Below the pieces are notes generated by a model, which did not search any database, was not told where the DNA came from, and saw nothing but the letters and a program-made list of their open reading frames with translations. The translations under genes and the position numbers were made by a program. A stretch of 22,828 nucleotides of DNA from a bacterium. GTDB taxonomy: Bacteria > ARS69. This document shows positions 4,961-21,037 of this stretch, piece after piece. The DNA lies in contig JALGZR010000116.1 of NCBI GenBank assembly GCA_025774805.1, forward strand, positions 1 through 22,828, in the 5' to 3' direction. Every line of letters begins with the position of its first letter. Position 1 is the stretch's first letter.

Positions 4961-7900
4961 CTACACCGAAACGGGACTGGAGCGCGTCTTCGAGCCCGCC
5001 GTGACCACATCCGGCCGGGTGACGGTGCGCGGTCCCAGGTAGACCTGGCCGCTCGTGCCGTGCAGGGAGACCAGGTCCCCCTTGACGATCTGGTGAAGCA
5101 CCTCGCCGGAGGAGCTGTGGATCGCGACGGCGACGTGAGACGTCGATCCGCCCTTGGCCGTGAGAAGCCCGTCGGCCGAGAGGATCATAGGAATGTCCTC
5201 GGGCGTCGGGTTCTCCATCACCATGAGAATCCCGTCGACATCGTCCCGCTCCGTCACGCCGCTGTCCGCCAGCTCGATCCGATCCGACTCGTCGAAGGCC
5301 ACGACCCCGCGGAACGCGAATCCCCGCACGCCGATGCCCTGTGCGACCGCCGGCCCGGGGTTCATGAAGGCGACCGTCTCCACGTCGACGCTCTTCTCGG
5401 ACGTCCGTGACTGGAGGATGCTGAGCACCCCGCGCTCGACGGTGAACTCCATCTCCTGGTCGGTGCCGTGGAAGCGTCTCAATCGGGCCACGACGTGCCG
5501 GATCCGCCGGTGGAGCATCGGCATCAGTCGTTCGAGCTCGGAGATCGCGTGGAACGATCCGGGCCCCACGACACCGCTGACGAGGTCGTCGCCGGCGGCC
5601 GAGAACTTGAACTCGCCCTCGAGCTCACGAACACCCCAATCCGTCAGTCTCGTGTGCGGAATCACGCCGGTGAGCGACGCCTCCGTCTCGTCCATTCCGG
5701 GACGCACCTCGATCTTCTTCCGGTTCCCGAACGCCATCACCTGGACGATCGCCGTCGTGTGCCAGTCGTGACAGATCCCCTTGAACTCCCGGTACCGCCG
5801 TGCGGCTTCCCGCTCCCAGGAGTCGAAGACGGCGTGGATCGCGGCGAGGAGCTGCCGGCGCGGATCCTCCAGCAGGGCGTCCATCGCCTGCCCGTGGCCC
5901 CGCTTGCGCAGGATCGCCTTCGTCGCCTCGGCGATCTCCTTCATCCCCTCCCAGGGGAGGTCGTCCTTGGCCAGCACTCCATAGCGCCGCTTGGTCTCCT
6001 CCACCAGATCGTATTCCTCGACATCCACACCCCAGACCGCCCCCGCGAAGGAGGCGAGGAACCGCCGGTAGGAGTCGTAGGCATGCCATGGGTCCTCGGC
6101 CGCCAGCGTCTGCGCGATCCGGTCGTTCATCCCGGTGAACACGACGGTCGAGAGGATCCCGGGAAGCGAGATCACCGACCCTCCGCGAACCGCGAGGAGG
6201 AGGGGTCGGCTCTCGTCTCCGAACCGGGCCGGGATTCCGTCGCGGCGGGCGACGTCCTCCTCGAGGATCCGGAGGTGTTTCTCGACCGCCTTCTCCAGCC
6301 CGGCTCGGTCGGTCCGGTGAACCCCGGCGCGGGGGAGGGCGGTGGGAAGGATGAAGCCGTCCCGCGTGGGCAGGTTCAGGTGGGAGATCTGCAGGAGGCT
6401 GCTCCCCTTGCCGCCGTACTGGGCCCGCAGGCAGTCCTCCGGCTTCCCGCTCTCGATTCGACGCCGGATTTCATCGCGGTGCGAGATGTGCAGGATGTCG
6501 TACACCGCGTCCGCGCCCGGCCCGCTCGGGCGCTCCTGTCCATTCACCCGCCGGTCGAAGTCCTCCACTCCCTCGCGGACGAAGCGCGTGGCGAGCTCGG
6601 CGAAGTGCACCATGCAGTTGAGGTCGAAGAGACCCCGCTGCAGGTTCGCGGTCACGAATTGCAGCTCTTGGGACTCCATCCCGAGGCGGGTTCGAATCGC
6701 GTCGAACGGGGAGAGGACCCGCTGGAGCATCTTGTGGAAGCAGCGCTGGACGCCGTCGAGCAGGTTCAGGACCTCCGCGAAGGTCCGGGAGCCGTCGACC
6801 AGCATGTCCGTCAGATCGCGGAGCTCCTGGCAGGGCACGCCGTCCGGTTCGAGGTTCCGAACGCACGTCCGGATGATCTCGAGGCATTGCGAGAGCTGCA
6901 CACCCTTCTCCTCGTATGAAGAGGCCAGCTGCCGCAGCATCAGGTAGCCCATCTCCTCGAGCAGGCAGTCCAGGTGGTAGAGATGGCGCCGTTGCTCCGG
7001 GAAGCCCGCCGGGTCCAGTCCGGCCCGCACCCGGTGGCGCAGCTCACGGATGGCGTCCACGCTCTGAACGAGCTCTCCGCTCCGGGAGATCTCGCGCACG
7101 TTGGCGAGGCGCGCGAACAGCTCGTCCTGGAACGCGGAGCGGGCACTCTCCGCCAGCCGATCCACGCCGCCGCGAAGGGTCGCCTCGGCCTCGTCGACGT
7201 CCAGGGAGGGATCCCCCGGATCGAGGTCCAGAAGCTCCGAGATCGCCCGGCTGCACGCCTCGATCTCCGGCGGGCCGTCGGTGAAGGCGTCGGCCTTCGC
7301 CTTCACGATTCGCAGGTGGTGGTTGTACACGAATCGGTTCCGGTCGCGGAGCGCCTTCGCGATGATCTCCGTCTCCTCACCCAGACTGTTCCCGAACTCG
7401 CACCGCTCCAGCGTCAGCGCGTACTCCCTCTCCCAGTCGCTCAATCGGTCGTTGATGTCGCCCGCCTCGAAGAACGTCTCCAGGTCGCCGACGATGCGGC
7501 CCACGAGATCACGGGGCGTGGTCCGGGACCGCGCCTGCTCGTCCGCGGCCGCCGGATCCGGATGGCCCTCCTCGGCGAGGCCGGCGGTGTCCCCCGTCTC
7601 CAGGTACTTCAGGTATGCACGCGCGAGGCGTAGAGTGCCCCTGCCCAGCGCGTGGTGCGTTCGGCGGCGCAGCTCGTTCACGATGGAGCTGCCCCGCACG
7701 TGGACCTCCGCGAGGTCGATCGTGTCGTTCCAGAGTCGATCGATGACGGTGGGCTTGGTGGCGAGTCCCGCGATGCTGCGCATGAGGACCCGGACGAGAA
7801 GCGGCACGCGCCTCGCGAGTGGGCTGTTGATGAACCGATCGAGCTCGACGTTGAGGTTGCGCACCTCCGGCTGCATGTTCTTGGCTCCGAGGAAGGCCTT

Positions 7901-10900
7901 GAACGACAGTCCGACGATCCTCGCCACCAGGCAGCGGAGGGCGAAGATGCTGTGCGTTCGATTCGCCGACTCGCTGATTTGTTTGAGCCCGGCCGCGATG
8001 TCCCGGATCCGGGCGACCGCGACGGGGCGCGCGTCCTCCTCGTGGAAGCCGAGCATCAGGGGCTCGAGGTCGATCGCCTCGCCGCGCACGCCCCCGATCG
8101 TCGTCAGAAGGTCGTCCGTGAGGATCGTGCCCTCCCGGACCGAGCGGCGCGCGAGCCATTCGATGCTCCCGTCCCGGACGCCGTGCACCAGGACGTCGTC
8201 TCCGAGGATGTAGGGGACGGCGAGCGCGTCGCCATTCCGGAAGATGCGGTTGTTGACGAGACCGAAGGCGCGGTAGCGCGAGGCGAGGGGCCGTTTGATG
8301 AGCGCGTAGCGCCGGAGGGCCTCCGCGCGATTGGCCTCGGTGGGCTCCAGCACGCACGCGCGGTGAAGCGCGCGGTCGAGGTCCTCGAGCCCTTCCCGCT
8401 CCTGCGGGGTGAGGACGGCGGGCTCCCGATCCGGCGCGCCGGCGATCGCGGGCTCCGGCACGCGCTCGGGTGCGGGCTCGGCTGCGGCGGGGTCTTCCTC
8501 AGAGAGCTCCGCGGACCCGCCGGGTGCGGCGGCGGCGACGCCCGGCGTCTCGACGGGAGGCGGCGTCTCGGTCGCCCGTGCCTCCACTGCGGCAGGGGTG
8601 GCGGCCGGCTCCTCGGTCGGAGGAGGGGCCGGCTCCGGACGCTCCTCCCGTGGAGCGGCTTCAACCATCCCGAGCTCGGCATCCCCGCGCACGGTCTCCG
8701 CAGGAATCTCCATGCCCTCCTCGGTCCCGTAGATCCCGGAGACCTCACGCAGGGCCTCGTAGAGCGGCGTGCCCCGGGCCTCGAGTTTCCGGTTGGCCTC
8801 GCGGAGCGCGGTCACGTAGTCGGAGAGCGCGCTGCCCCGGATGTCCACCTGCTCCTTGTCGCAGAGTCGAGCGACCATGGCGATCATCTCGTCGCGCAGG
8901 GCCTCGTAGAGATCCTGCCCCTTGAGGTGGGCGATTCCGCGGGCGAGGGCGAGCGAGACCGCGAGCATCGCGTTCATCCCCAAGTTCTGCTTGCGCTGCA
9001 TCACCTGGATGCGCTCCTCGAGCGTCGCGTCCTCCCGGAGCTTGCCGCGCCGCCGGGCCACGCGCTCCTCCAGTTGGAGCAGCACCCGGTCGACGTCGCG
9101 GAGCGTCATCGCCGCTGCGCTTCGCCCGACGAACGCGGGAGCGATGATCTCGAGCACGTTTCCGACCGCGTTCAGGCATCCCTTGCCGCCGTAGCGCCGA
9201 GCTCGCGTGAACAGCGCCTCGAGCGCATCATCACCGGACGCGTGGACATCCGCGTCGCGGACCTCCTTCCGGAAGCGGACCACGCCCTTCTCTGCCTCGA
9301 CAAAGAGATCGGGATGCCGCTCGATCGGCTCGCGGTGCTCCGCCCTCTCCACCAGGGCATCAACGAGATGAATGGCCTCGCCCGTTCCCGCGGACGTTCC
9401 GAGCGGCGTCGCACCGCGGAAACGAAGCGTCACCCCGGATTCGGAAAGAGAGATCTCGGCGGTGGCGCCCACCGTCGGGATTCCGGCGTTGGTCGGCTCC
9501 TCGTACGCGGTCAGTGAGTGGAAGACGGCCTTCCGCCCGCTCGTGAGGGCGTGCGACTCCTCGGCCGATCCGCCCTTGCCCATCAGCTCCGCGACGGACT
9601 GGTACTTGACGAGCCTCTCGGTGTTCGCTCCGCCTCCGGCCTTGAGACCGAGCGCGTTGACCGCCAGCGCGATGTGAGCCTCCATATCGTCGTTCGGGCT
9701 CTTCGAACGGTGCGAGACCACGATCTCCAGGTTCTTGCCGAGTGCCACGAGCATGGCAATGAGGGTCTCGTAGAGGGAGCCGATCTGGTTCGCCTTGATG
9801 AGGGCGGTGTTGATCAGACCGCGCGCCGCGTCCTCTTCGATGGTGCGGTCGTTCGTGGTCACGAGGTCGTCGCCGATCACGAGGACCCGATCGCCGAGGG
9901 CGTCGAGGAGCATCTTCCAGCCCTCGCGATCGTCTTCGGAGAAACCGTCCTCGATCGACGCGATGGGGATCTCGAATTCGGTGATCGCCTTGCGGTAGAT
10001 CTCGAGCACGCCGTCGCGATCCATGACCGCCTTGGCCTTGTCGCGCCAGAAGAGGTACATGCCCACGCTGTCGGGCATGTTGAACTCCTCGCGATAGGCC
10101 TTCTCCAGCTCGGACATGGCGGGGTCGAGGGCGATGGCCACGTCCTGGCCCGGTCGGTAGCCGCACTCCTCGATGGCCTGGCGCATCATGGCCCAGAGCC
10201 GGACCTCGGGGAGGGGGTAGTCGCCCTTCTCGATGAAGGGCGCCAGCCCGCCCTCGAGGCCGATCCCCATGACCCGGCCTCCCTCCGACTTCTCGATGAT
10301 CTCTTTGAGCCGGTTCTGGAGGCGAACCGTCATCTCCTGGCCCTCTTGGTAGTCGCGGGCGCTGAGGATGAGGAACATCGCCTCCTGCATGCTGACGTTG
10401 GATTCGGGATACTCCTTCTCCGTGTGTCGCCCGCCCATTCCGCAGTTCCGGAACTGCCACGGCGCGGTGACCGGACCGAGGCGGGGGTGGGTGATCTCCT
10501 GGATCCGCTCCGCGAGCATGCGCTGCTTCACGGCCGAGGCGCGGTCGAACCAGCTTCCCACGTCCCCCACGGTCGCGGCCTGCTCGGCGGCCCGGCGCTC
10601 CCGCTGCCGGAACTCGCGGTACTTGCCCGGGTCGGCGATCAGGAAGTCGAGGAGCCCGACGACTCCGATCCCGAGAAGGAGACGGCCGAGGTAGACGGCG
10701 GCGATCGCATCGAGCAGAAGGCCGATCGCCAGGAGGATCACGGCGGGAGGGAGCGCGGCGAGCGCGAGGTTCCGACTGGCGTGAGGGCCCGCCGCCGCGA
10801 CCGCGAGGTTGTAGGGAGCATCGGGATAGTAGTTGAGACTCTCCCGCTTGATGCCGCGCGCCTTCCCGTAGGGCGCCCGGAGGAAAAGACCCAGGTAGAG

Positions 10901-11239
10901 AAGCGCCCGCGCGGTCGGGGTTCCCTTCAACTGCGGAGCGAGCTCCTCCAGCACCCGGGGGTTCAGTGCGTTGAGTCGCGCCGCGGACCGGAAGTGTCCG
11001 ATCTCGTGCCAGGCGATACCGGTGTGGAAGCTGATGTACATGAACAGCGCCGAGACGATGGTCTCGGGGCTCACGAAGATGAACGCGAGGACCTCGGCCT
11101 TGTGGACGGCGAGCGAGGGAAGGGCCAGGACCGAGGAGACGAAGGCGACGTGGAAGGAGACGAGGATGTGGTTCGCGATGACCCACCCCTCGTGGAGGTG
11201 GGACCGCCGGGGCGCCGGGCAGGACGGTGCCCGGCTCAT
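4961..11239 (-). CDS. Megaprotein: M50-type membrane zincin + circularly permuted enolase + PPDK-like ATP-grasp/His domains (2,092 aa)
   Basis: The start is ATG at 11239. The frame stays open to 11611, but those 124 codons are low-complexity and match nothing I recognise. Residues 20-215 hold several membrane segments with HEIGH (78-82), AAAGPxxSRNLALA (148-161) and LLD (D198), the three sites of M50 site-2-protease-like proteases. Residues 262-556 are an enolase barrel with its active-site set present: GGRH (H272), QEAM (E286), LEGG (E329), D372, SIEDG (E430), GDD (D457), IKANQIGS (K482), SHRSK (H510, R511), LKAGG (K533). Residues 577-790 are the enolase capping domain (GTSAGTGEA with S616, GGKG, KQNLGMNAMLAVSLA), which is normally N-terminal. 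A Pro/Ala/Glu linker (about 855-945) and a helical region of unknown fold (945-1600) follow. PPDK-like ATP-grasp then runs from 1608 (YGGKG, K1611; LAVRGGS; EMEF; LQSR) to a phosphohistidine domain (KGGSTSH, H2035). The PEP/pyruvate barrel is absent. Membrane-tethered interconversion of 2-phosphoglycerate and PEP, linked to ATP-dependent phosphotransfer, is inference. Confidence 0.85.
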   Translation of the reverse strand: MSRAPSCPAPRRSHLHEGWVIANHILVSFHVAFVSSVLALPSLAVHKAEVLAFIFVSPETIVSALFMYISFHTGIAWHEIGHFRSAARLNALNPRVLEELAPQLKGTPTARALLYLGLFLRAPYGKARGIKRESLNYYPDAPYNLAVAAAGPHASRNLALAALPPAVILLAIGLLLDAIAAVYLGRLLLGIGVVGLLDFLIADPGKYREFRQRERRAAEQAATVGDVGSWFDRASAVKQRMLAERIQEITHPRLGPVTAPWQFRNCGMGGRHTEKEYPESNVSMQEAMFLILSARDYQEGQEMTVRLQNRLKEIIEKSEGGRVMGIGLEGGLAPFIEKGDYPLPEVRLWAMMRQAIEECGYRPGQDVAIALDPAMSELEKAYREEFNMPDSVGMYLFWRDKAKAVMDRDGVLEIYRKAITEFEIPIASIEDGFSEDDREGWKMLLDALGDRVLVIGDDLVTTNDRTIEEDAARGLINTALIKANQIGSLYETLIAMLVALGKNLEIVVSHRSKSPNDDMEAHIALAVNALGLKAGGGANTERLVKYQSVAELMGKGGSAEESHALTSGRKAVFHSLTAYEEPTNAGIPTVGATAEISLSESGVTLRFRGATPLGTSAGTGEAIHLVDALVERAEHREPIERHPDLFVEAEKGVVRFRKEVRDADVHASGDDALEALFTRARRYGGKGCLNAVGNVLEIIAPAFVGRSAAAMTLRDVDRVLLQLEERVARRRGKLREDATLEERIQVMQRKQNLGMNAMLAVSLALARGIAHLKGQDLYEALRDEMIAMVARLCDKEQVDIRGSALSDYVTALREANRKLEARGTPLYEALREVSGIYGTEEGMEIPAETVRGDAELGMVEAAPREERPEPAPPPTEEPAATPAAVEARATETPPPVETPGVAAAAPGGSAELSEEDPAAAEPAPERVPEPAIAGAPDREPAVLTPQEREGLEDLDRALHRACVLEPTEANRAEALRRYALIKRPLASRYRAFGLVNNRIFRNGDALAVPYILGDDVLVHGVRDGSIEWLARRSVREGTILTDDLLTTIGGVRGEAIDLEPLMLGFHEEDARPVAVARIRDIAAGLKQISESANRTHSIFALRCLVARIVGLSFKAFLGAKNMQPEVRNLNVELDRFINSPLARRVPLLVRVLMRSIAGLATKPTVIDRLWNDTIDLAEVHVRGSSIVNELRRRTHHALGRGTLRLARAYLKYLETGDTAGLAEEGHPDPAAADEQARSRTTPRDLVGRIVGDLETFFEAGDINDRLSDWEREYALTLERCEFGNSLGEETEIIAKALRDRNRFVYNHHLRIVKAKADAFTDGPPEIEACSRAISELLDLDPGDPSLDVDEAEATLRGGVDRLAESARSAFQDELFARLANVREISRSGELVQSVDAIRELRHRVRAGLDPAGFPEQRRHLYHLDCLLEEMGYLMLRQLASSYEEKGVQLSQCLEIIRTCVRNLEPDGVPCQELRDLTDMLVDGSRTFAEVLNLLDGVQRCFHKMLQRVLSPFDAIRTRLGMESQELQFVTANLQRGLFDLNCMVHFAELATRFVREGVEDFDRRVNGQERPSGPGADAVYDILHISHRDEIRRRIESGKPEDCLRAQYGGKGSSLLQISHLNLPTRDGFILPTALPRAGVHRTDRAGLEKAVEKHLRILEEDVARRDGIPARFGDESRPLLLAVRGGSVISLPGILSTVVFTGMNDRIAQTLAAEDPWHAYDSYRRFLASFAGAVWGVDVEEYDLVEETKRRYGVLAKDDLPWEGMKEIAEATKAILRKRGHGQAMDALLEDPRRQLLAAIHAVFDSWEREAARRYREFKGICHDWHTTAIVQVMAFGNRKKIEVRPGMDETEASLTGVIPHTRLTDWGVRELEGEFKFSAAGDDLVSGVVGPGSFHAISELERLMPMLHRRIRHVVARLRRFHGTDQEMEFTVERGVLSILQSRTSEKSVDVETVAFMNPGPAVAQGIGVRGFAFRGVVAFDESDRIELADSGVTERDDVDGILMVMENPTPEDIPMILSADGLLTAKGGSTSHVAVAIHSSSGEVLHQIVKGDLVSLHGTSGQVYLGPRTVTRPDVVTAGSKTRSSPVSV

Positions 11240-13768: not shown

Positions 13769-14342
13769 CGGTGACCTTCCCTTCAGTACTGGTTTTACGT
13801 TCGCAGAGTTCGGCCGCATCCAAGGGCCCGGCCATTTCCGGCGCTCTTGCTTCGGGGGTCAGCCCAACCACAGAGATTGTACCTATGTCTCACTATGGCC
13901 AGCCACGATAACCCTGCTCTTTCCTTGAGACAGCTCGATGGTGGCAGGACTGCTCTCGTTTCTTTCGGCCCTGTCGGTCCGTCTGGTTCTCGAGTCTGGG
14001 TCGTATCCTTCCCCAATGGCTTCGAAACTGCGATTTTCGCAGGTTACCCCATCCCCCGAATCTGGAGTCCCCCGCCACCCTCTCCCCAAACTTCTGTCCC
14101 ATAATCAGTTACGCTCTCCATTCCCTCTCCTTCTCAGGCCCTGAGGCCACGGAGAGACTTGCATTCTGTCCCATAAGAGCTGATGCTTCGCTCGCACCCA
14201 CGCCATACACCGCCGGAACACACCCCGCATTCTGGGACAGCACTACCGGTCACCCAGCTCGCGAGCGTGTCCTTCACCCAGGGGGACCTCCCTGTAACTC
14301 AAACACTGTCTCTTCGCTCAACATATGATTAGAGGTGCGATC
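13769..14342. other. AT-richer non-coding stretch at the left edge of the island
   Basis: Base composition shifts from the GC-rich background to a mixed one at about 13850-13880. Short frames here do not look like genes. The stretch holds two direct copies of TTCTGTCCCATAA (14092-14104 and 14164-14176) and an inverted TGGGACAG (14235-14242). It resembles decayed mobile-element DNA, but I cannot assign a family. Confidence 0.5.
14092..14242. repeat. Direct and inverted copies of TTCTGTCCCATAA / TGGGACAG
   Basis: TTCTGTCCCATAA occurs at 14092-14104 and again at 14164-14176, 72 bases apart. TGGGACAG at 14235-14242 is the inverse of the CTGTCCCA core inside both. Such sets are typical of transposase-binding ends or of a regulator's operators. 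Here they sit 100-250 bases upstream of the TIR-radical SAM gene. Confidence 0.5.
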
Positions 14343-16661
14343 GTGAACGACAGAGACCGAGTTGACCGGGTCTTCATAGGTTGTGCGCAAAAGAACGTTG
14401 TCTCTCTCAAACTTAAGAACTTCCTCGCCGACCGCCTCAATAAGAAAGTTGCCATGGTCCAGGAGTTCGACCCGGGCACCACCGTCTTTGACACATTGGA
14501 TGAACACGGGCAGCATTGTGATTTTGCCATCATCGTGCTGACTGCAGATGACTTGACTTCTGACGGAGAGCTCCATCCTCGGCAAAATGTGATACATGAA
14601 CTGGGTTTCTTCCATGGAAGAATTGGCCGGGATCGAATCCTCCTTCTGAAGCAGGACATTGCCAAGCTCCCCTCAAACGTCGGAGGTCTTCACTTCCTGG
14701 AATTCCAGGGCACGGACATCAAGCCAATCCTCGACGACATCCGAACCAAGATCGAGAATGCACCTGCCTCCGAACTCACTTACGAGCGCCTTGCCGCAAA
14801 TGTCTATCTCTCGCGCGATGCCCCGGGTGCGCATGTCTACAGTATGCTTGAGACGTTTCGTTCTCCTGAGGCATTCCTGGAAGGGCTTCGAAACACCCAG
14901 GCGGAGCGAATTCTTCTTCTGGGATCTGCGCCTGCTGAAACGCAGGCATTCCTCGGGGCTTTGCTTCGATTGAAGATCGCTAATGAGCCGGAAACAAGAG
15001 AAAGGATCCATGTTCGCAACGTTGATCATGCAGAGATTCCGGTCAAGTTTGTCATGTCAGCCGTTGATCACGTGCCCCGGCATATCGTTCTAGCAGGACC
15101 TGTCGGTGCCAAGACTCACCGCGGGCGGGATCTGGCCGATCTCAATCCCGATGTGTACGCTGTCTTTAAATCCTCGTTCCAAGCTCTCTGGTCCCGCGCA
15201 ACCTCAATGCAGGAACATGTCACTGTCGAGATCTTACGCCGTTATAATGAGATCCCTCCGCGCACGCATTCCCTGAAGGACTTCGTGCGGCGGGTCCTCG
15301 TGCCCCAAGAAACTTCTAATGCGTTCTGCTCTGAGTATGGGGAATCCGCATTCACACAAGTTTGTGAGTATGTTGGTAGTCTCATTCAAGAGCAAGCACC
15401 GGATCACGGTGCTCGGATTCGCCTGTCTTCAGGTTCCCCCACGTCGATGCAGTTCTCCGTTCCTCCCCTCCGAAGTTCCTTGGCACGCCTGTTCAGCGAG
15501 CCTCCCGTTGGGAATCGTCGGCATGTCCCGTTCAGTGTCATCTTCGATCTCACGTACTTCTGCAATCTGGCATGCAAGGGATGCGGGGTGGCCGTCAAGC
15601 CCCGCGCGTCCGAACTCACCAATGTTAAATGGGAGATCTCCCTTGAGGAGGCCGCAGCGATAATTCGAGGTGTCGAGTGCTTCGGCAGGGGGAGAAATCT
15701 TAAGGGAAATCTCCGATTCTGTATTGGCGGCGGAGAGCCAACTCTCCATCCAAACTTTGACGACGTTATTGAATTGGCGGCCCAGGCTTTCGGCCCTCAA
15801 AGTGTTTCATTCGACACTAACGGTACGAATTTGCCCTATGAGAGGCTGCGACGCATAGCTAGAAAAGTGAGCAATATCGGCGTTGGGGTGGACGGAGACG
15901 AAGATTATCACAATCAGTGGCGAAATCCCGGGAACGGCGGATATCCCAAATCCGTGTTCCGCGCGGTCGAGGAACTGCTTGAGAATGCAGCCCGAGACGA
16001 CTGGATTCTCCAGAAGATCGAGATTGTCTTTACTCCGACCGCAGAGAACTGGAAGAAGTTCAAAGAGGTTGCGAGGCTTGCTAAGCAGTACGGCATACGA
16101 CGAATAAGCTGTCATCGATTCATGCTGACTGGGCGGGCGTTCAAGGGGAAAGAGGAGACAGATGGGGAGGCCGAGGTCAGTGAGCCAAGCCCCGAAGAAT
16201 ACCTACAACTCTTTGAGGACATCGCACGTGTACGCGAAGAGATGGGACTTGAGGCGCATTTCCACCACTCGTTCGAGCAGCTCCTAGAGCGGCAACTTGC
16301 CTCAATCGACTCGACCGTTCACACTTTGGCTCCGTGTTGCTCCCGAAGGGCGGCATTGTGCATCAGCCCTGACAAGAGGCTTCACTTCTGCCCGTGGTTT
16401 GTTGCCCCTCCCTTCGACAAACTTGGACTTTCCCTGAGTGACTTCGAGGCAAGGAACCTCGATGGCGAGATTTACTATGACATCTGCAAGGCTGTTGGAA
16501 TACTTCGCAAATATTCGATGGGGTGGAATGTCTGCCCGATTGCCGGTGCCTCGATGCGCCTGCCAAAGCGGGAAGGCAAAAGGTGGGAACGCCGGGAGCT
16601 ACTGGACGCCTTGCGCCGTCCGGATAGATGTGAGGACGCGATATTGACGGCACTCGGGTAG
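14343..16661 (+). CDS. TIR-like (CAP12/PF10137-type) NADase domain fused to radical SAM enzyme
   Basis: I choose GTG 14343, which has AGAGG seven bases upstream. ATG 14325 adds six residues with no ribosome site. Residues 8-125 match the CAP12/TIR-like nucleotide-binding fold: RVFIGCA at the first strand, CDFAIIVLTADD, then QNVIHELGFFHGRIGRDR with the probable catalytic Glu86 and LLLK. In this family the domain usually cleaves NAD+ or binds nucleotides in anti-phage effectors. Residues 126-390 are unrecognised. Residues 395-620 are radical SAM: CNLACKGC (C407, C411, C414) for the 4Fe-4S cluster, GGGEP (462-466) for SAM binding, and SFDTNG. C-terminal C665/C666, C673, C683 and C731 suggest a SPASM/twitch-type auxiliary cluster. 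Composition is more AT-rich than the neighbours and the gene lies among mobile-DNA remnants, which argues for transfer. A defence role is inference; the chemistry and trigger are unknown. Confidence 0.85.
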   Translation: MNDRDRVDRVFIGCAQKNVVSLKLKNFLADRLNKKVAMVQEFDPGTTVFDTLDEHGQHCDFAIIVLTADDLTSDGELHPRQNVIHELGFFHGRIGRDRILLLKQDIAKLPSNVGGLHFLEFQGTDIKPILDDIRTKIENAPASELTYERLAANVYLSRDAPGAHVYSMLETFRSPEAFLEGLRNTQAERILLLGSAPAETQAFLGALLRLKIANEPETRERIHVRNVDHAEIPVKFVMSAVDHVPRHIVLAGPVGAKTHRGRDLADLNPDVYAVFKSSFQALWSRATSMQEHVTVEILRRYNEIPPRTHSLKDFVRRVLVPQETSNAFCSEYGESAFTQVCEYVGSLIQEQAPDHGARIRLSSGSPTSMQFSVPPLRSSLARLFSEPPVGNRRHVPFSVIFDLTYFCNLACKGCGVAVKPRASELTNVKWEISLEEAAAIIRGVECFGRGRNLKGNLRFCIGGGEPTLHPNFDDVIELAAQAFGPQSVSFDTNGTNLPYERLRRIARKVSNIGVGVDGDEDYHNQWRNPGNGGYPKSVFRAVEELLENAARDDWILQKIEIVFTPTAENWKKFKEVARLAKQYGIRRISCHRFMLTGRAFKGKEETDGEAEVSEPSPEEYLQLFEDIARVREEMGLEAHFHHSFEQLLERQLASIDSTVHTLAPCCSRRAALCISPDKRLHFCPWFVAPPFDKLGLSLSDFEARNLDGEIYYDICKAVGILRKYSMGWNVCPIAGASMRLPKREGKRWERRELLDALRRPDRCEDAILTALG

Positions 16662-17065: not shown

Positions 17066-18991
17066 TCACCGCCCCTGTCGCATTTGCTGTCGGAGCCCCA
17101 CGATTTGGGGACGGACCAGCATGCCTACGCGATGTTCGTCGATCTCGAGGGCCTTTTCGTACTCGGCCAGGGCTTCCGGCAGGCGGTTCTGAAGGCTGAA
17201 GCGGTCCGCCCGCAGGACGTGAATGAACCCGTTTCCGGGATCCAGCTCACGCGCTCTCCGCAGCGCGTCCTCCATCGCATCCCACCGCTCCGTCAGCATG
17301 TGGGCCCGAGCGATCTGGAGCGCCGTCCCGCAGAGCGGGTTGAGCGCGAGCGACTCCTCCAGAATGCGAACCGCGTCCTCGGTCCGGTTCGCCTCTTGGT
17401 AGAGCTCTGCGAGGAGCGACGTGCCGTCGACGTAACCCGGGCACTCCTGCACCGCCGCTTCGGCCTCGCGGATCGCCTCGGCCAGCCGTTTTTCCCGCTG
17501 AAGGCGGAGCGCCGACGACGTGCGACGGCTCGCCCGCATCATCGCCTTCGGATCGGGAAGGCCTCCCGACACCTCGTCCCCCCCCGAGGCCTGCGCGTAG
17601 CCGAGGGACCGCAGCCGCTCGATCTCCTCGGTGCTCATCTCGCGGCGCCCCGAGGCCGAGACCCCGGCCCAGCTCTCTCTCAGGCGGTCGAGACGCTCCG
17701 CCAGCCCCCCCGCCTCGGATCGATCGGGGTGGAGATTCGTGAGCTCGTCGGGGTCGGCGCGCAGGTCGTAGTACTCCGGCTCCGGCGCCTCGATGTATTT
17801 GTCGTGGCGCCGACGCAACCCGTAGAGCGGGCTGCAACGCGCCGCGTGAAACGGCATCCGAGTCTCGACGTAGAGGGCGCGATCCGGATCGTTCTCCCCG
17901 CTCAAGAGACTGACTCCGTCTCCGGACGCGGAGACCGGGAGGCCGAGGAGATCCTCGAGCGTCGGGCGCAGGTCCACGAGACTGACCACGCGATCCGTGA
18001 CGTGGTGGGATCCGTCGAAGAGCCCGGGACCGGAGAGGATGAAGGGGACCCGGAGGGTGCTTCCGTAGACGAACAGTCCGTGCGTCGACTCCCCGTGCTC
18101 GCGCAGACCCTCCCCGTGATCGGCGACGAGCGCGATCAACGTGCGATCGCTCCGGCCGTGACGTCCGATCTCCGCGACGAGCCGCCCGATCTGCTGATCG
18201 ACGTACGCGATCTCGGCGTCGTAGGGACGGCCGGAGAAGCGCGGGAGATTTCCCAGGGGAGACTGGAGCGGAATGTGCGGGTCGAAGTAGTGCACCCACA
18301 GGAAATACGGCGTCGCCGTGGCACCCCGTCCTCTCAGCCAGCCGATCGCGGCGTCCGTGACGGCGCCCGCGGATCTCTGATTGAAGTCGAGGTTGCCGGG
18401 CTGGAAGCCGCCCTGGGTCACCTGGAAGTCGTAGGTGTCGAAGCCCTGGTCGAGGCCGAATCGCTCGTCGAGCACGAAGCAGCCGATGAAGGCGACCGTA
18501 TCGTATCCGGTCTCCTTCAGTCGCTCCGCCAGGGTGGTCCGTTCGGCCTCGAGTCGGAAGAGCCCGTTGTCCCGAACGCCGTGCCGGGGAGGGTAGAGTC
18601 CGGTCATGATCGTCGTGTGGGAGGGCAGCGTGATCGGCACCGGGGAGATGGCGTCGTCGAACTGGACGCCGTTTCGCACGAGCCCGTCCATGTTCGGGGT
18701 CTCGGCCTTCTCGTAGCCGTACGTACCGAGGCGGTCGCTCCGGACCGTGTCGAGCGTGATGAGAAGGAGGTCGTAGCCGGCGGCATCGCCCGGGCGGACG
18801 AGTCGGGAGAGATCGGCGGAGGGCGCCGGGCGTCGCGAGAGGAACACGCCGAAGACCGCGGCCGCGCCGAGGACCGCGACCACGGCGCCGGCCAGGACGA
18901 TCGGGCGCTTTCGACTTCCGCTTTTTCTCGGCGCCGGCTTCGGCTGCGGCTGCGGCCTCTGCTGTCGCCGGCGGCGGGATCGCTTGCCCAT
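17066..18991 (-). CDS. Membrane-anchored sulfatase-fold (alkaline phosphatase superfamily) hydrolase with TPR C-terminus
   Basis: The 641-residue protein has a very basic cytoplasmic start, a single membrane anchor (about 31-50), a sulfatase domain (about 72-440) and TPR repeats (about 505-635). Metal-site motifs are LLLITLDTVRSD (D81) and VADHGEGLREHGESTHG (D291, H292, H304). The nucleophile motif reads PITLPSHTTIMTG, with Thr121 where sulfatases have the Cys/Ser that becomes formylglycine and His where they have Arg. A phosphatase, phosphodiesterase or phosphotransferase chemistry is therefore at least as likely as sulfate ester hydrolysis. The active domain should face the periplasm. The paralogue ends 96 bases upstream on the same strand, so the pair is probably one operon. 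No strong ribosome site is visible before ATG 18991. Confidence 0.85.
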   Translation of the reverse strand: MGKRSRRRRQQRPQPQPKPAPRKSGSRKRPIVLAGAVVAVLGAAAVFGVFLSRRPAPSADLSRLVRPGDAAGYDLLLITLDTVRSDRLGTYGYEKAETPNMDGLVRNGVQFDDAISPVPITLPSHTTIMTGLYPPRHGVRDNGLFRLEAERTTLAERLKETGYDTVAFIGCFVLDERFGLDQGFDTYDFQVTQGGFQPGNLDFNQRSAGAVTDAAIGWLRGRGATATPYFLWVHYFDPHIPLQSPLGNLPRFSGRPYDAEIAYVDQQIGRLVAEIGRHGRSDRTLIALVADHGEGLREHGESTHGLFVYGSTLRVPFILSGPGLFDGSHHVTDRVVSLVDLRPTLEDLLGLPVSASGDGVSLLSGENDPDRALYVETRMPFHAARCSPLYGLRRRHDKYIEAPEPEYYDLRADPDELTNLHPDRSEAGGLAERLDRLRESWAGVSASGRREMSTEEIERLRSLGYAQASGGDEVSGGLPDPKAMMRASRRTSSALRLQREKRLAEAIREAEAAVQECPGYVDGTSLLAELYQEANRTEDAVRILEESLALNPLCGTALQIARAHMLTERWDAMEDALRRARELDPGNGFIHVLRADRFSLQNRLPEALAEYEKALEIDEHRVGMLVRPQIVGLRQQMRQGR

Positions 18992-19087
18992 GGATCGGAG
19001 GCGCCCGGTTTCGGAGGACGAGGTCAGCGGCGGTTCCGCGTGATGCGCGTGCGGGACTATAGCATGTCCGGCCGGCCCGCCCTCCGC

Positions 19088-21037
19088 TCACCCCTCCCGA
19101 CGGGCCAGCGCTTCGCGTGCAAGCTCCTCCAGGGGACCGTCCGCGTCGAGCTCGAGGACTTCGCGCCAGTGATGCACCGCCTGATCCCGGGCTCCGAGCC
19201 GATCGTGAACGCGCGCGAGGCCGGCATGAGCCGCGGCGGAACGCGGTCGCAGCTCGACGGCCTCTCGAAGAAGGCGCAGCGCCTCGTCCTCCCGGTTGCG
19301 GTCGGCGAGGAGCGCGGCGAGCTTCAGACGCACGGCGACCGACCGGGTGTCGTGGGCCAGCGCACGCCGCAGGACGTTCTCCTGTTTCTTCTCGTTCCCG
19401 AGTCCGCCCTCGGCGTCGGCGAGTCCCAAGTAGACGCTCGTCGGGTTCGGGCCGAGCTCGAGCGCCGCCCGAAACGCTCGCTGCGCCCCCGCGAAGTCCT
19501 CGCGGGCCAGATGGGCCTGACCCAGGTAGTCCCAGACGAAACGGTTCTTCGGGTCGTCCCCGACGATCCGTTCCAGCGATTCGATCGCGCGAGCGACCTC
19601 CCCGGTGTCGAGGAGTGTGACCGCGTGGTCGAAGTCTCTCAGGAGATGCACGCGATCCGCCGGATCCGGGCCGCTGTGAAACGCCTGCTCCGGGCTCTTC
19701 CCGGCCTCACCGGGGTCGCCGCCCACGTAGCCCAGGGAGCGGAGGGCCCTCACGTCGGTCGGGGAGAGATTTCGCTCCTGCGAGGCGAACGAGCTCCGGC
19801 GGCGCTCTTCCCACTCCTGGAGAAGCCGCTCCTTCATTCGCGCCAGGATCTCGGGATGGCTCGACGCCAGGTCGCGCTCCTCCCCGGGATCCTCCTCGAG
19901 GCGGAACAGGCGGTCCCTCTCCCCGACGACGAGCCTCCAGCCGTTCTCCTCCCACGCGCGCAGCCCTCGCCAACTGAAATTGAACCAGGGATACAGCGTC
20001 TCCGAGAGGACCGGGGTCGGCGGGGCCGACAGGGGAGGTGCCGACTCCGCGTTCACCCGCGGATCGAGCCCCGCGAGGGACAGTAGCGTCGCGGAGACCC
20101 GCTCCAGAGAGACGGGATCTCGAATGAGCTCCGGTTCGTACTCTTCGGTTCGCGCGATGATCGGCACCCGGATCGTCGAGGTGCGCAGGAGAAAGCCGTG
20201 ACTGGTCTCGCCGTGGTCGCCGAGCCCCTCGCCGTGGTCGGACGCGCAGACCGACCGGAGCCGGCGCCCGGGCCGGCGCTGCGCGAGCTCCGCGAGCACC
20301 CGTCCCACCTGGCGATCGGTGTGGGCGACCTCGCCGCGGTAGGGGTCGAGGTCGTAGAGCTGCCGCCACGGCTCGGGCGGCCGGTAGTCCGCGTGGGGAT
20401 CGAAGAAATGAACCCACAGAAAGACCGGCCCGTCCGGTGACGGGGCCCGTTCCGAGTCGAACCAGCGCCGGAGTCGGCGCACGGTGAGCTCGGCCGGGCG
20501 CTCCCGCATGAAGACGAACCTGTCCTCTTCCCGGCCGAGACGCTGGTCGTAGTGATCGAAACCGCGATCGAGACCGAAGCTCGCCATCACCGGGTAGGCG
20601 CCGATGAACGCCGCGGTGGTGTACCCGGCGGCCCGGAACCGCTCGGCCACGGTGTGTCCGGTCTGACGCCCCAGCCGGAAGATCCCGTTGTCCCGGACGC
20701 CGTGGGAGACGGGCGGCAGCCCCGTCATCATGCTCACGTGAGACGGCAACGTGACCGGCGCCGGCGCGCGCCCCTCGTAGGCCAGCGCCGCGCCGCGGGC
20801 GAGGCGATCCAGCTCCGGCGTCCGGACCGCGGGGTCGCCGAGACATCCCAGGCGGTCTCCGCGCAGCGTATCGATCGTGACGAGCAGCACGTCGGGAGGG
20901 CTCGGCCCGGGCCCGGGCGCGCACGCCCACGGCTTCGCGAGGGCGATCACGGGAACCACCGAGAGGAATCGCCAGCGCAAACCGGATCTCCGAGGGGCAC
21001 CCGGGGGAGTGGCGGAGCGACGAGCTGGGTGAGCCAT
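19088..21037 (-). CDS. Exported sulfatase-fold hydrolase with TPR C-terminus, paralogue of the downstream gene
   Basis: This 649-residue protein is built like its downstream neighbour. It has a basic start with a hydrophobic stretch (about 24-39) serving as signal or anchor, a sulfatase domain (about 48-400) and TPR repeats (about 460-640, e.g. NRFVWDYLGQAHLAREDF). Motifs are LLVTIDTLRGD (D56), PVTLPSHVSMMTG (Thr96 at the nucleophile position) and CASDHGEGLGDHGETSHG (D267, H268, H280). Both proteins share the HGVRDNGxFRL segment and the 'LRSLGY' end of the catalytic domain, so they come from a duplication. A Cys at 39 is not in a proper lipobox (PWAC). No good ribosome site precedes ATG 21037. 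The substrate is unknown; TPRs may bind a partner or another cell-envelope protein. Confidence 0.85.
   Translation of the reverse strand: MAHPARRSATPPGAPRRSGLRWRFLSVVPVIALAKPWACAPGPGPSPPDVLLVTIDTLRGDRLGCLGDPAVRTPELDRLARGAALAYEGRAPAPVTLPSHVSMMTGLPPVSHGVRDNGIFRLGRQTGHTVAERFRAAGYTTAAFIGAYPVMASFGLDRGFDHYDQRLGREEDRFVFMRERPAELTVRRLRRWFDSERAPSPDGPVFLWVHFFDPHADYRPPEPWRQLYDLDPYRGEVAHTDRQVGRVLAELAQRRPGRRLRSVCASDHGEGLGDHGETSHGFLLRTSTIRVPIIARTEEYEPELIRDPVSLERVSATLLSLAGLDPRVNAESAPPLSAPPTPVLSETLYPWFNFSWRGLRAWEENGWRLVVGERDRLFRLEEDPGEERDLASSHPEILARMKERLLQEWEERRRSSFASQERNLSPTDVRALRSLGYVGGDPGEAGKSPEQAFHSGPDPADRVHLLRDFDHAVTLLDTGEVARAIESLERIVGDDPKNRFVWDYLGQAHLAREDFAGAQRAFRAALELGPNPTSVYLGLADAEGGLGNEKKQENVLRRALAHDTRSVAVRLKLAALLADRNREDEALRLLREAVELRPRSAAAHAGLARVHDRLGARDQAVHHWREVLELDADGPLEELAREALARREG

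Follow-up and report, generated by a model that had tools for sequence, protein, structure and literature searches.

The window, i.e., the whole stretch of 22,828 nucleotides analysed here, encodes a large protein whose enolase part is, judging from its profile matches, a natural circular permutant of enolase with new ends near canonical residue 140. The canonical enolases compared have one fixed domain order, whereas the permuted family has the opposite order. The order of the domains, the conservation of residues, the single clade, the selection and the recurrent linkage to a dikinase half were all established by computation. A preliminary description of this DNA left out the larger protein, in which a site-2-protease-like (S2P-like) domain stands before the enolase and a PPDK-derived module after it. 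In this larger context, the enolase looks less like a spare glycolytic enzyme and more like a component of a membrane-tethered module. The best explanation overall, which we hold to be probable, is that the permutant is a working, membrane-held enolase that cooperates with the PPDK-derived module.

Enolase is among the most conserved glycolytic enzymes, and a permutant with every catalytic residue offers a direct test of the cap-barrel connection for folding, dimer formation and catalysis. Neither a permuted enolase, as the preliminary description had already stated, nor an enolase/S2P/PPDK fusion or three-part module was found described in the open-access papers searched.

Reversed order of the enolase domains

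The open frame runs from 11611 back to 4961 on the minus strand (2216 codons), and the protein probably starts at an ATG at 11239, giving 2092 codons (4961 to 11239, minus strand). The full-frame translation is referred to as P0001, and residue 1 of the preliminary description, the ATG at 11239, corresponds to P0001 residue 125; relatives can be aligned from about P0001 residue 137 onward. Within this frame, the enolase TIM-barrel domain, which is the canonical C-terminal domain, comes first (9584 to 10486, minus strand; PF00113, hhalign and structure match), while the cap domain, which is the canonical N-terminal domain, comes second (8870 to 9517, minus strand; PF03952 and hhalign). They are connected by a linker of about 22 residues (9518 to 9583, minus strand), which joins the canonical C-terminus to the canonical N-terminus and lies in poorly conserved alignment columns.

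The Pfam profile Enolase_C matched P0001 389-673 (E 6.4e-46; 157.4 bits against a gathering score of 21.5), and Enolase_N (PF03952) matched after the barrel, with the best stretch at P0001 871-904 (E 7.4e-13; 49.2 bits against a cut-off of 35). A six-frame search of the genome placed Enolase_C at 10447-9590 and Enolase_N at 9223-9065 and 9004-8900, all in one common frame. By hhalign, the permuted barrel paired with the canonical barrel (E 8.5e-51, covering E. coli 145-409) and the permuted cap with the canonical cap (E 5.1e-22, covering E. coli 3-134), and the cross pairs of barrel and cap gave no match (probability 0.1-0.5%). The final 20 or so residues of the canonical barrel had no hhalign counterpart in the permuted copy. 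These pairings indicate that the permutation cuts at the cap-barrel junction and that the old ends are joined by the 22-residue linker. The barrel-then-cap order in a single open frame, as first described from the sequence, was thus reproduced by Pfam, the six-frame search and hhalign. A second canonical cap ahead of the barrel was also considered and dismissed, as the upstream segment had no hhalign match to the cap (probability 0.1-0.5%).

Against the NCBIfam equivalog model TIGR01060, the protein reached 211.5 bits and missed the cut-off of 300 bits, because the permutation splits the score. Annotation pipelines may therefore miss or misname the permuted enolase, whose two pieces are scored separately and fall below the equivalog cut-off.

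An AlphaFold2 model of residues 1-806, built from 22 sequences, was of moderate confidence (mean pLDDT 68, pTM 0.55). Its barrel (259-553) superposes on about residues 142-420 of a solved enolase chain (Z 19.7, rmsd 3.4 A over 266 residues); the structure aligners used follow chain order, and the superposition covers the barrel. The cap is predicted with good local confidence.

Conservation of the active site, selection and ancestry

The preliminary description had claimed a complete active-site set, and all twelve residues checked are identical in the window copy, namely the equivalents of E. coli S42, H159, E168, E209, D246, E290, D317, K342, H370, R371, S372 and K393. The residue numbers of the E. 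coli reference sequence agree with the established ones. By residue alignment, the catalytic Glu equivalent to E209 is encoded at 10253 to 10255 and the catalytic Lys equivalent to K342 at 9794 to 9796, and the catalytic-loop serine of the cap, S616, is at 9392-9394, all on the minus strand. The twelve catalytic, metal-binding and phosphate-binding residues are kept in 31 of 32 permuted copies, and they are also complete in four further Omnitrophota copies and in a stand-alone gene of the genome G1020. The sole exception among the 32, L091, has lost all twelve as well as the HExxH motif of its membrane domain, and is a degenerate relative, probably a pseudoenzyme. This locus (G172:C59, 2-2959, minus strand) carries reversed enolase domains followed by the start of a second S2P-like domain at the C-terminus.

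Some features depart from the canonical enzyme. The N-terminal motif S-R-G-N-P-T is altered, with S15-R16 replaced by N-A in most permuted copies and E22 by G in nearly all, which may affect dimer contacts. The permuted cap carries insertions compared with the canonical cap, and the barrel and the cap loop differ in detail (SHRSKSPND and GTSAGTGEA, respectively). The phosphate-binding set for 2-phosphoglycerate (2-PG) and phosphoenolpyruvate (PEP), consisting of H370-R371-S372 and S42, is typical of true enolases and not of other members of the superfamily.

For the pairs that could be resolved, dN/dS of the barrel was about 0.11 (window versus L006), 0.03 (L014 versus L017) and 0.06 (L022 versus L023), and was below that of the cap or the membrane domain in the same pairs. 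In a quick maximum-likelihood tree with 33 canonical enolases, the permuted copies all fell on one side of a branch with SH-aLRT support of 100; there are long branches inside the permuted group, and its inner order is uncertain. The permutation most likely arose once, and selection has maintained it in bacteria scattered over several phyla, mostly beside a canonical enolase.

The sources are mostly metagenome-assembled genomes, L025 and L028 contain frameshifts, L091 is degenerate and the window has a 29-residue gap in its swivel domain, all of which would fit an assembly chimera or a decaying duplicate. For the family, such an artefact is nevertheless of negligible probability in view of about 40 independent loci with one and the same order, purifying selection and a single clade. 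A chimera or assembly error was dismissed on the number of independent loci, and a decayed copy on the conserved catalytic residues and dN/dS. The preliminary description had likewise held that this is not a decayed copy, which agrees with the conservation in independent copies, the strong purifying selection, the single clade and the existence of the stand-alone gene. The permuted protein is an enolase homologue and probably functions as enolases do.

The site-2-protease-like membrane domain

The permuted enolase is nearly always preceded by an S2P-like (M50-type) membrane domain, which in the window lies at 10502 to 11182 on the minus strand. Its hallmarks are an HExxH motif in a membrane helix (HEIGH in the window, at 10994-11008), the motif A-A-G-P and late Asp residues that are conserved. 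When loci from other genomes were searched with hmmsearch, the S2P-like profile retrieved genuine S2Ps, including the RseP-like L114, L115 and L117 and the SpoIVFB-like L116 (E 3e-6 to 2e-5). Pfam Peptidase_M50 had no match in the window and a weak one in L085 (E 0.016; 15 bits, below the gathering score of 27.2), and no S2P structure turned up when PDB sequences were searched with the S2P-like profile. The HExxH motif is kept in 14 of 15 aligned copies, the exception being L091, and it is also lost in G1020, so protease activity cannot be general; this pattern suggests that an anchoring or signalling role can suffice.

The PPDK-derived module and the helical domain

A Pro/Ala/Glu-rich linker follows the cap, ahead of a domain of about 640 residues that is largely helical and has no confident match (6494 to 8416, minus strand; delimited by alignment and model). 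Foldseek and VIA-align matched PPDK for the C-terminal half and otherwise gave weak helical matches, and hhalign found no relation between the helical domain and the end regions of the PPDK-like neighbours in subfamily B.

The PPDK-type ATP-grasp domain (5384 to 6466, minus strand) was identified by TIGR01828 (E 5.5e-67) and by a PDB profile match to PPDK 12-341, and the phosphohistidine swivel domain (4994 to 5368, minus strand) by PF00391 (E 1.4e-5), with the catalytic His at 5135-5137 in GGSTSH. The window keeps the ATP-grasp equivalents of PPDK K22, R92, G101, R135, E323, Q335 and R337 as well as the swivel H455 equivalent, while the subfamily-B neighbours keep K22, R92, E323, Q335 and H455 but not R337. 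About 29 residues just after the swivel His are absent in the window and present in all 15 aligned relatives, which reflects either a natural deletion or an assembly error. The window protein ends after the swivel, with no match to the PEP/pyruvate TIM barrel of PPDK, and wherever it was scanned, homology to PPDK breaks off before the PEP barrel, near position 512 of 865. The equivalog cut-off of TIGR01828 (843 bits) was missed, with 226.4 bits.

It could be imagined that the enolase barrel replaces the missing PEP/pyruvate barrel, with the swivel His exchanging phosphate with an enolase-held ligand, and the PPDK homology does stop before the PEP barrel in all four arrangements, with an enolase barrel linked each time. 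Neither the sequence nor the model, however, has any sign of the swivel docking on the enolase. In addition, the phosphate bound by enolase lies beneath the cap loops and is not touched by the reaction, making this reading quite improbable.

Halves of PPDK type without the PEP barrel have been reported to phosphorylate other small molecules, such as by rifampin phosphotransferase (PMC4844700) and HpeHI (PMC12167813). By the same token, the dikinase half might make another phosphorylated hydroxy-acid that the barrel dehydrates, which would make the protein a new member of the enolase superfamily, and the non-canonical details of barrel and cap loop would agree with this. The equivalents of H370-R371-S372 and S42 are, however, kept without exception in intact copies, and we regard a different substrate as unlikely. 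VadK (Rv1127c) of M. tuberculosis is also a PPDK half without the PEP/pyruvate barrel, which autophosphorylates and binds metabolic enzymes (PMC12636432); by analogy, the PPDK half described here should autophosphorylate on its swivel histidine.

Distribution and genomic arrangements

The reversed order was found in more than 30 (about 40) loci from Acidobacteriota, Gammaproteobacteria, Myxococcota/Deltaproteobacteria, Omnitrophota and other MAGs, including loci on contigs of 100 kb, 800 kb and 1.4 Mb. A search for related loci gave 24 of the family, nearly all with the window architecture as far as their contigs reach, labelled as Acidobacteria, Lysobacterales and other Gammaproteobacteria, Deltaproteobacteria, Myxococcales and Omnitrophica MAGs. 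The family is rare and patchy: profile searches found it in about 10 of 297 genomes in the phylum of L007, as five clear matches among 237 genomes in the phylum of the Omnitrophica locus, in four of 188 in a Myxococcota/Deltaproteobacteria sample, in one of 274 in a gammaproteobacterial sample (the seed itself) and in three of 386 in a broad sample. Plasmids yielded no closer permuted relative covering 80% of the query.

The same three parts occur as one protein, two, or three consecutive genes. In the window and most loci, they are fused into one long protein that ends in the PPDK half; L007 has two adjacent genes. All four subfamily-B loci (L085-L088) carry a shorter S2P-enolase protein and a convergent PPDK-like gene. 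The Omnitrophota locus L113 has an N-terminal PPDK half, as does L111, where it lies farther away in a 10,304-residue frame. In G1020, a genome unrelated to that of the window, the parts form an operon of three consecutive genes, in which a PPDK-like and an S2P-like gene come first and the permuted enolase, at most 554 residues long, follows just downstream as a gene of its own. Other conserved neighbour genes in subfamily A were not found beyond small groups of four loci.

Several other features were seen at these loci. Omnitrophota have very long frames with the S2P-permuted enolase, of 10,304 (L111/L112, G398:C13), 10,113 (L092/L093, G080:C98) and 3,214 codons (L109, G547:C72), which also contain Glu/Leu dehydrogenase-like, UDP-glucose pyrophosphorylase-like, PPDK-like, HATPase and LysM domains. 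In L089 (3417-8961), a divergent S2P-permuted-enolase gene adjoins genes for a canonical enolase and phosphoglucomutase/phosphomannomutase. The window further encodes a 778-residue protein (14325-16661, plus strand) in which a radical SAM domain (E 1.7e-14) comes after a CAP12/Pycsar-type TIR domain (E 1.9e-22), and two adjacent sulfatase-TPR proteins in tandem (17066-21037, minus strand).

Most carriers, the genome of the window among them, also encode a canonical enolase, and the idea that the permutant is the sole enolase of its host was dismissed for most of them. In G060, G065 and G347, the permuted copy alone was found; a contig may be missing, and G347 has long contigs. If this pattern is real, the permutant would be the only enolase of these three.

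Proposed role of the assembly

In the explanation that we prefer, the S2P-like domain would hold the enolase at the membrane, and the permuted enolase would convert 2-phosphoglycerate to and from phosphoenolpyruvate. The PPDK-derived module, with its ATP-grasp and swivel domains and no PEP/pyruvate barrel, would phosphorylate its own histidine from ATP. In this way, phosphotransfer at the membrane would be coupled to the handling of PEP/2-phosphoglycerate and to the state of ATP, and the protease-like domain may be the output. We infer the catalysis, the coupling and the role of the protease-like domain. The altered S-R-G-N-P-T motif, the cap insertions, the unmatched end of the canonical barrel, the equivalog miss, the moderate model and the HExxH lost in two relatives are counterpoints to this explanation.

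Enolase chemistry on 2-PG/PEP is the activity that we favour, at somewhat better than even confidence, because no intact copy lacks any of the catalytic and phosphate-binding residues. Selection may nevertheless act on binding and not on catalysis, because a canonical enolase covers glycolysis in most carriers. The protein might accordingly serve as a sensor, which binds 2-PG/PEP and Mg2+ in the old active site and gates a protease-like or histidine-kinase-like module without turnover. The canonical enolase in most carriers and the nature of the fusion partners, an S2P-like membrane domain and a PPDK half that has no acceptor barrel, would suit a sensor, for which VadK provides a precedent of a regulatory PPDK half (PMC12636432). 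However, only the degenerate L091 has lost the equivalents of K342 and E209 and the metal ligands, and a sensor without turnover appears rather doubtful, if less so than a change of substrate. Pure sensors usually lose the general base or acid.

A more far-reaching reading can be proposed tentatively, at less than even confidence, namely a bacterial membrane machine of a hitherto undescribed kind in which the permuted enolase reads or sets the level of PEP/2-phosphoglycerate, the PPDK-derived module phosphorylates a histidine from ATP and the protease-like domain is output or anchor. If the three parts do function as a unit, they would amount to more than an enolase variant. The linkage to an S2P-like domain and a PPDK half in several arrangements points to an unrecognised tie between lower glycolysis, histidine phosphorylation and the membrane.

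Comparison with known systems

Compared with canonical enolase (EC 4.2.1.11; E. coli Eno and yeast enolase), the permuted copy is homologous in barrel and cap along nearly the whole length, but it has the reversed order, the new termini near 140, a membrane tether and fused partners. The S2P-like domain resembles the M50 site-2 proteases RseP and SpoIVFB in its HExxH within a membrane helix, A-A-G-P and late Asp, whereas it lacks an LDG motif in the strict sense, leads into a cytosolic metabolic enzyme and has lost the HExxH motif in two relatives. The C-terminal part is like PPDK in its ATP-grasp (12-341) and phosphohistidine swivel (392-509) with equivalents of K22, R92, E323, Q335, R337 and H455, and unlike it in the absence of the C-terminal PEP/pyruvate TIM barrel, in the helical residues in front and in the fusion to a permuted enolase.

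Rifampin phosphotransferase and the HpeHI/PpsAB dikinases share the ATP-grasp and the swivel histidine and use a non-pyruvate acceptor; they have a dedicated small-molecule binding domain in place of the permuted enolase and the helical domain. VadK likewise shares the PPDK-derived ATP-grasp and histidine domains and has no PEP/pyruvate barrel, but it is free-standing, with no membrane domain or enolase, and its reported partners are enzymes of the methylcitrate cycle (PMC12636432).
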